From Patescibacteria group bacterium (GTDB lineage Bacteria > Patescibacteriota > Microgenomatia > UBA1406 > GWC2-37-13): a stretch of DNA of 64,000 nt. The notes beneath the pieces were generated by a model. It made no database searches. It had not been told where the DNA came from and saw only the letters and a list, made by a program, of their open reading frames with translations. This document shows positions 57,271 through 58,935 of this stretch, one piece after another (positions within the stretch are counted from its first letter, which is position 1; every line of letters starts with the position of its first letter). The translations under genes were made by a program, and so were the position numbers. The stretch covers positions 124,001 through 188,000 of the forward strand of contig BPJE01000001.1 in NCBI GenBank assembly GCA_026004455.1, given 5' to 3'.

Positions 57271-58935
57271 AGCATAACCAGCAGTATGAACTGGTGATTT
57301 TGTTATCTCATCAGCCTTGATCTCAACAACAATTTTTGGCTCAAGCCAAATATCACATTCCATAGTTTTATCAACTAAGTAATTATTTGGCTTATATTTA
57401 ACTTTTAATTTTTGACTTTTAACTTTTAATTTTTTCCACTCTTCATCAGTTAACCCTGTACCAATTTTTGCCACAGTTTTATACTGATCATTTTCATCAT
57501 CATAAACACCAACTAAAAAAGCACCAATTCCAAAACTAGTTCGCTTTCCCTTTCCTAAATCATAACCCATAACTACACAATCTATTGTGTCATTCACTTT
57601 TGAAGAATAGCTTTTTTTATATTTTATCCAGTTCCATTCACGCGCGCCTGGTTTATAAACACCATCAATTTTTTTTGCCATTATTCCTTCAAGATTGTTT
57701 TTTACCGCTTTGTCAAAAAGTTCATCTATTTTTTTTTCATCATTAACCTTTTCTTGATTAGCAATTAAAATTACTTCATTTTTTATATCTTTTTTTGTCT
57801 CAATTGACTCTTCAAGTATTTTTCTTCTTTTAATAAATGGTTGATTAATAAAATTTTCTCCGTCTTTATATAAAACTTCAAAAACAAATAATCGAAGTGG
57901 TATTTCTTTAGCAACTTTATCAATATCGTATTTTCTCTTTCTTTGTACTGTCTCTTGAAAAGGTAAAAAATCACCAGTTTTTGGATTATAACCAATTGCT
58001 TCACCTTCAAAGATCATCTCTTTTGCTTTAACTTGTTTTTTTACTGCTTCAACAATATCTGGATACATAAAAGTAACATCTTCTAAACTTCTTGAAAAAA
58101 GCTTGACCTCAGGGACGGTTTTTTCAAGAACAGAACCTTTAAGGACCGTCCCTTTTTTATAATGAACTTGAAGTCTAAATCCATCAAACTTCTCCTCAAT
58201 TACACAATCACCCAGCTGATCAATAATCTCTTTTGCTGAAGATAGTCTTTCCGCTCTCATCATAATAATTGGCGTAAATACTTTTGGTTCAATTTTTTCC
58301 AAGGCAGTCACTCCTTTTTCTTTAGCTAACCTTCCAATAAATCCAAGTTCTGGCCTGACATGATAAGCTTTTTCAAAAAGATTACGCAAACTTTTATCAC
58401 CTTTTATCATCCAAGAATAAGCATCAAGAATTGTCATATCAGAAAAACCCATTCTAATATTTCCAGTTGGAATCCTGACAATAAATTTTGCTGATATTGG
58501 ATCAAGTTGACGAATAAGTTGAGATAAAAGGCTTATTTTTACTTCTTGACTACCTTCACCTGAAGAAGTTGCTATTCGATAAAAAAAATCATAAACTTCA
58601 TCTATCTCCATTTCTTTTTCTTCAAAAGAAAAAAATTGTTTTTTAAAATACTCAACTGTTTCTCCTAAATCACCGGTTTTTTTATACTCTTTTTCAAAAT
58701 AACTTTTTTCAATATTTAAAGCCAAAATAATTGCTTTTATCACCATCTTTTCTGCCATACCAAACTCTATTCCCTCATAAGCTGGACGAACTCTACCTTG
58801 CAAAAGATAAACCACCTTTTCTATCTCGCTTGATGAAAGTTTTTTAAAAAGTTCAGCTAAAATCCGAGTAATCTCAATCCGCGAAGAGTTCTGACTAATC
58901 TTTTCAAAATACTCTGCTAATTGATTAAATTTCAT
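57172..58935 (-). CDS. lig: ATP-dependent DNA ligase
   Basis: A 587-residue archaeal-type ATP ligase that seals nicks. The N-terminal helical DNA-binding domain (about residues 1-200) precedes the nucleotidyltransferase domain: motif I EEKFDGFRL (adenylated Lys, about residue 248), motif III MIFEGEAIGYN, motif IV LEGIMAKK, motif V NWIKYK; the OB domain follows, ending FPRLERFRDDKKPQDATT. Bacteria normally have an NAD ligase (LigA); that gene is not in the window. Two inserted segments are seen: KGTVLKGSVLEKTVPE (about 261-276) encoded by an inverted repeat, and [10 protein letters not shown] near residue 505, encoded by 7-bp repeats. Confidence 0.92.
   Translation of the reverse strand: MKFNQLAEYFEKISQNSSRIEITRILAELFKKLSSSEIEKVVYLLQGRVRPAYEGIEFGMAEKMVIKAIILALNIEKSYFEKEYKKTGDLGETVEYFKKQFFSFEEKEMEIDEVYDFFYRIATSSGEGSQEVKISLLSQLIRQLDPISAKFIVRIPTGNIRMGFSDMTILDAYSWMIKGDKSLRNLFEKAYHVRPELGFIGRLAKEKGVTALEKIEPKVFTPIIMMRAERLSSAKEIIDQLGDCVIEEKFDGFRLQVHYKKGTVLKGSVLEKTVPEVKLFSRSLEDVTFMYPDIVEAVKKQVKAKEMIFEGEAIGYNPKTGDFLPFQETVQRKRKYDIDKVAKEIPLRLFVFEVLYKDGENFINQPFIKRRKILEESIETKKDIKNEVILIANQEKVNDEKKIDELFDKAVKNNLEGIMAKKIDGVYKPGAREWNWIKYKKSYSSKVNDTIDCVVMGYDLGKGKRTSFGIGAFLVGVYDDENDQYKTVAKIGTGLTDEEWKKLKVKSQKLKVKYKPNNYLVDKTMECDIWLEPKIVVEIKADEITKSPVHTAGYALRFPRLERFRDDKKPQDATTLAELLSMANKHS
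57392..57434. repeat. 7-bp-period repeat inside lig
   Basis: TTTAACTTTTAATTTTTGACTTTTAACTTTTAA, period seven, encodes [12 protein letters not shown] on the minus strand between EEWK and YKPNNYLVDK of the ligase OB domain. The same words occur between genes at 15300 and 59003-59057. Confidence 0.6.
58111..58153. repeat. Inverted-repeat element inside lig
   Basis: AGGGACGGT (58111-58119) and ACCGTCCCT (58145-58153) are perfect inverted repeats of 9 bp with a 25-nt loop. Extending inward the arms are about 11/13 identical. In lig this encodes KGTVLKGSVLEKTVPE between FRLQVHYK and VKLFSRSLEDV, segments adjacent in other ATP-dependent ligases. Its GC content contrasts with the gene. Confidence 0.7.

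Follow-up and report, generated by a model that had tools for sequence, protein, structure and literature searches.

REPtrons consist of short hairpin repeats that are scattered genome-wide near gene ends, where they supply stop codons, and that flank a single HUH/Y1 transposase gene (PMC3116915, PMC8266576, PMC3733652). REPs of the CGTC type have a stem of 8-9 bp and a loop of 4-5 nt and flank no transposase; both GTAG and CGTC REPs have been described in frame in the open reading frames of housekeeping genes, among them the DNA ligase of O. terrae and tRNA synthetases, and different REPs occupy about the same site in Xanthomonas recB (PMC3733652). Elements of the IS200/IS605 type have subterminal hairpins, left and right ends that differ from each other, and a Y1 HUH transposase (PMC8266576). 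The classical example of in-frame palindromes is that of the Rickettsia palindromic elements (RPEs; Ogata et al. 2000, 2002), which reviews describe as dispersed palindromes that lie in frame within conserved genes and that the host proteins tolerate (PMC2229807, PMC10969869), with a length of 105-146 bp (PMC2229807).

The DNA stretch analysed here (64,000 nucleotides, hereafter the window) comes from the 895-kb genome of a Roizmanbacteria-like (Microgenomates) bacterium, G000. On its minus strand, at 57172-58935, it encodes an ATP-dependent DNA ligase of 587 amino acids with the Pfam domains DNA_ligase_A_N/M/C, which is archaeal-type by sequence and fold, the nearest solved structures being archaeal ligases with 2hiv first. 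Its relatives in the species collection include Micrarchaeota ligases (38-42% identity). The initial annotation of this gene reported a 43-bp inverted repeat with 9-bp arms at 58111-58153, and the repeat proved to be real and correctly located: its arms, in plus-strand writing, are AGGGACGGT (58111-58119) and ACCGTCCCT (58145-58153), each perfect over 9 bp and separated by a spacer of 25 nt. Within the window AGGGACGGT is found only at these two arm sites, against 0.01 expected, and inverted repeats of 9 bp that contain GC and have a spacer of 3-30 nt occur at two sites in the window and at none in most dinucleotide shuffles; the only other one is ACCAGTTGG at 38699-38735 (spacer 19). The ligase reading frame stays open across the element. 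Short A+T-rich repeats of the TTTTAACTTTTGACTTTTAA type lie in frame in the C-terminal part of the ligase (57378-57435) and again in the upstream spacer (58970-59060).

The palindrome belongs to a dispersed family, referred to here as R1. The exact two-arm GGGACGGT pattern, with the full GGGACGGT...ACCGTCCC pair, occurs at one place in the genome, the ligase copy, and demanding both exact arms wrongly suggests a unique repeat: GGGACGGT occurs 16 times, and at 12 other places it is the tag of dispersed elements of the same family. Two GGGACGGT matches (L003, L017) were rejected as elements, the hairpin being missing. The 12 copies share an architecture of tag AGGGACGGTCC, spacer and AGGTTCTGTCCTT-loop-AAGGACAGAACCT, rearranged in some cases; the canonical form is AGGGACGGTCC-TTTA-AGGTTCTGTCCTT-nnn-AAGGACAGAACCT, and the family hairpin has a 13-bp stem and a 3-nt loop. 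The ligase copy (58110-58154, 45 bp, minus strand), which makes up the in-frame codons 261-276 (KGTVLKGSVLEKTVPE), contains the family tag AGGGACGGTCCTT (58141-58153, minus strand), also present in about 12 dispersed copies, followed by the first stem half AGGTTCTGTTCTT (58126-58138, minus strand; consensus AGGTTCTGTCCTT). Where the partner AAGGACAGAACCT usually stands there is a second tag-like arm, and for this reason AGGGACGGT and ACCGTCCCT had been taken for the arms. The proposal of a dispersed palindromic element in frame in a CPR protein gene stands, whereas the exact inverted repeat as originally described represents a unique copy that has been rearranged. A covariance model whose seed comprised the ligase copy of G017 and seven copies from elsewhere in the genome, but not the window copy, matched about 22 places in G000 and about 16 in G017, and recovered the window copy with 32.8 bits (E 1.2e-7). 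The counts given here come from genome searches and retrieved stretches of metagenome-assembled genomes. Most R1 copies outside gene interiors adjoin gene borders; some supply the last codons and the stop (QVLSLLRTEP*), some directly precede an ATG, and others are intergenic. An element is present at the same glycosyltransferase-fpg (mutM) junction in two species (L069, G000:C1:102021; L097, G017:C5:58715), where the C-terminal codons of the first gene come from the element and the second gene starts immediately after.

In the ligase, the element sits in the loop after KFDGFRLxVH, the main internal length-variable block in 18 same-genus ligases. This loop comprises 6-9 residues in ten genomes and 19 in the window ligase, a net gain of 10-13 residues and not the about 16 that had been estimated; the segment is also absent from distant ligases, with a 13-residue gap in the Sulfolobus ligase 2hiv, as had been supposed. 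In the AlphaFold model residues 261-275 form a loop of low confidence that joins strand 253-260 to strand 276-280. Inserts of the R1 type occupy the loop in G000, in G017 and, decayed, in G005, while in another clade G002, G013 and G008 carry an unrelated hairpin there, F2, which encodes LGSDPRRGSDP (AGGGTCWGACCCT); the G007 loop holds an A+T-rich repeat, and that of G018 is longer and unexplained. The G005 ligase reading frame (G005:C37; L026/L132) contains an in-frame TAG at about residue 335, downstream of the decayed element, which represents a broken gene, recoding or an assembly error. In the G006 ligase (L057:2965-5421; L144, G006:C28) an in-frame insert of about 340 residues follows KFDGFR, beginning with CITGHTP and ending with SGLVALHN before C; judged by its sequence motifs it is apparently an intein, and it precedes the hotspot loop by a few residues. 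On a tree of the ligases built without the loop, some branches of which are weak, R1 needs three changes and F2 two, and one old insertion with several losses may also account for the pattern. G001, which is near G000 on the tree, has AAAGGTTTTAATCCCGAG in the loop, and this may be a deletion remnant. Because the net length of the inserts is not that of a single element, adjacent codons must have been lost during or after insertion; no empty and filled site were found to differ by precisely one element. Ordinary loop-length variation or an assembly artefact might be suspected in a loop that takes up A+T-rich sequence too, but this explanation deserves almost no credence, being refuted by the sequence similarity of the segment to the dispersed copies and contradicted by the related element at the same site in the independently assembled G017 and G005.

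The only Y1 transposase (Y1_Tnp) match in the genome, which exceeds the Pfam cut-off, is a gene (C2:775-1524) that lies between two elements, at C2:729-774 and C2:1482-1527. Read on the coding strand, this unit runs hairpin-TTTTAAGGAGTGTAC-TTATT-ATG...GGATTAGGGACGGTCCTTTA-hairpin, and the stop codon of the gene falls within the right-hand element; described by its ends, it comprises the LE hairpin, the GTACACTC tag, ATG...TAGGGACGGTCC and the RE hairpin. The encoded RAYT-like protein has the HFH and YxWSSY motifs and scores 44.5 bits against NCBIfam REP_Tyr_transpos, below the curated cut-off of 80, and no sequence match was obtained among solved structures (PDB). The hairpin-RAYT-hairpin unit is a REPtron-like arrangement, and R1 resembles REPs both in being a dispersed short hairpin repeat and in having copies that flank a Y1 transposase gene. 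Two dispersed copies located 1.5 kb apart (G000:C2:46987-47032 and C2:48521-48566) carry the transposase left-end tag GTACACTC instead of GGGACGGT. Since Y1 transposases occur in 15 of 20 genomes of the genus and R1-type matches in only about half of the 20, the link between R1 and RAYT rests on adjacency; the R1 elements would be mobilised by RAYT. The F2 family, found in four of the 20 genomes (30, 16, 10 and 17 arms) and in none of the others, lies on either side of the RAYTs of G002 and G008. As an alternative, ectopic recombination, template switching or gene conversion from hairpin to hairpin could have spread the repeats passively, with RAYT as a bystander. Such a process would be in keeping with the rearranged copies (tag, hairpin half and tag in the ligase; a hairpin inverted relative to the tag in miaA, at C2:53088 and at C2:122162) and with the flanks of 19 copies, in which no clear fixed target sequence was seen. 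We nevertheless consider it unlikely, as R1 copies flank RAYT on both sides in G000, F2 does the same in two genomes, and F2 reaches 10-30 arms in each of four genomes while being absent in the rest.

Four of the 22 copies in G000 are internal to conserved genes, namely those of the ligase, enolase (QVLSLSRTEPTRTVPL), miaA (QGQNLSGSVLLKTVPD) and a PMT-type glycosyltransferase (KDRTLQGQNLKGPSL), and all four are in frame and free of stops; copies outside genes are open in 31 of 90 frames only. The enolase insert is missing in the four orthologues with a matched loop. Further in-frame internal copies of the R1 or F2 family were found in five more genomes (G017, G008, G002, G016, G013): in a DUF359 protein (G017, G008), an epimerase, peptide deformylase (def), GltX and a glycosyltransferase (G017), RecJ and a PaaX-like protein (G008), LepA (G002) and PheT (G002, G016, G013). 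No visibly broken gene was found in these five genomes, and the five same-strand cases that were ambiguous resemble, at the resolution of Pfam, pairs of separate genes and not split ones; this argument sets aside single-arm F2 hits and some spanning reading frames that match nothing in Pfam. We read the in-frame pattern as probably reflecting selection against frame-breaking insertions. The in-frame state of the internal copies is also the main ground for supposing that the inserts, that of the ligase included, are translated and not removed from the RNA. The element is evidently read as protein, in line with the idea that it creates protein sequence.

The pheT of G013:C12 (L293/L105) has received a palindromic insert in each of two domains, F2 in B5 and a different one, which is R1-like, in CLM. 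The miaA gene of the host (L012/L178; G000:C2:25872-25930) has a second GC-rich nested palindromic insert (SSEGLPTGRRRFFQPAAGRRAQSGLRSKQ), in loop 1, which by its TCCCGACTG core is not dispersed in G000, and miaA orthologues carry other palindromes in both loops: the CCTCCGAGG type twice in G014, TCATCCCGAGCGGAG in G009 and TCATCCCTGCGGAAGCAGGGATCC in G019.

It could be argued that the ligase gene retains the hairpin for a function of its RNA or DNA structure, for example in translation control, mRNA stability or attenuation, with the protein sequence incidental. The ligase copies of G000 and G017 do keep stable folds (-18.3 and -20.3 kcal/mol) despite their differing sequences. However, in G005 the fold is lost (-0.4 kcal/mol), sister species have no segment or unrelated inserts at this place, and copies are present in many unrelated genes, so that we regard a functional structure as very improbable.

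Taken together, it is highly probable that the segment is one REP-type palindromic copy of a REPtron, which entered the ligase gene at an adenylation-domain beta-turn and is translated as added protein. The R1 element would have entered at a surface beta-turn between two adenylation-domain strands, moved by RAYT through cleavage and joining of a single-stranded hairpin, as in IS200/IS605-related enzymes. The insertion would then have been retained as its length and frame kept the gene open and the turn tolerated extra residues, with a presumably near-neutral effect on the ligase. As related species carry different hairpin repeats in this loop, such repeats would repeatedly write new sequence into housekeeping proteins. 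A broader proposal, which we put forward only tentatively and hold to be rather doubtful, is that across the genus RAYT-driven repeats, joined by inteins and A+T-rich repeats, come and go repeatedly in one set of permissive loops and thereby generate loop sequence, perhaps aided by scarless excision or by a target preference that directs insertions to such turns. If this were true, mobile hairpins would be a standing generator of loop sequence in essential proteins. Protein-coding palindromes are here tied to an identifiable transposase gene, in streamlined Patescibacteria, and the occurrence of two unrelated families in the same ligase loop of sister species makes the choice between permissive loops and targeted sites testable by comparative genomics and RAYT biochemistry. 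The locus also cautions against taking insertions in CPR proteins for adaptive domains, since they can be mobile DNA instead.

The initial annotation suggested an equivalent of the RPEs, for which we know of no transposase. The equivalence does not extend to descent: the element is most probably a short REP with copies flanking a RAYT-like (Y1, HUH) transposase gene. R1 does share with RPEs the in-frame position in conserved genes (lig, eno, miaA, PMT), and RPE-4 and RPE-6 have been filed among the CGTC REPs (PMC3733652). At 45 bp, however, it is far from the 105-146 bp described for RPEs (PMC2229807), and its 13-bp stem, 3-nt loop and flanked transposase set it apart from the CGTC families, with their 8-9 bp stems and no transposase between units (PMC3733652); an RPE in the strict sense is therefore extremely improbable. 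R1 differs from GTAG-tagged REPs as well. No GTAG stands at the foot of its hairpin, where the consensus has CCTTTA or CCTTTT before AGGTTCTG, and one end type bears GGGACGGTCC and the other GTACACTC; its copies number about 22 instead of hundreds, and its host is a member of the Patescibacteria, whereas REP/RAYT hosts are mainly Proteobacteria. Unlike IS200/IS605 elements, R1 has dispersed copies that lack the gene, the transposase gene being single-copy in G000. A close parallel is offered by the intragenic in-frame REPs: the element is absent in the orthologues of relatives, the ligase loop being empty in ten congeners. Compared with them, R1 and F2 carry neither of the published tag arrangements, and the ligase region of one genus has received two unrelated RAYT-flanked families, A+T-rich sequence and an upstream intein-like insert. 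No papers linking RAYTs or coding palindromes with CPR bacteria were found, which is a weak absence given that the search lay mostly outside subscription journals. In-frame intragenic REPs are already known; the novelty lies in the families of elements, in the lineage and in the finding that unrelated elements have repeatedly filled one loop, and it is this filling of a single housekeeping-enzyme loop by unrelated mobile elements within a genus that is the unusual part.
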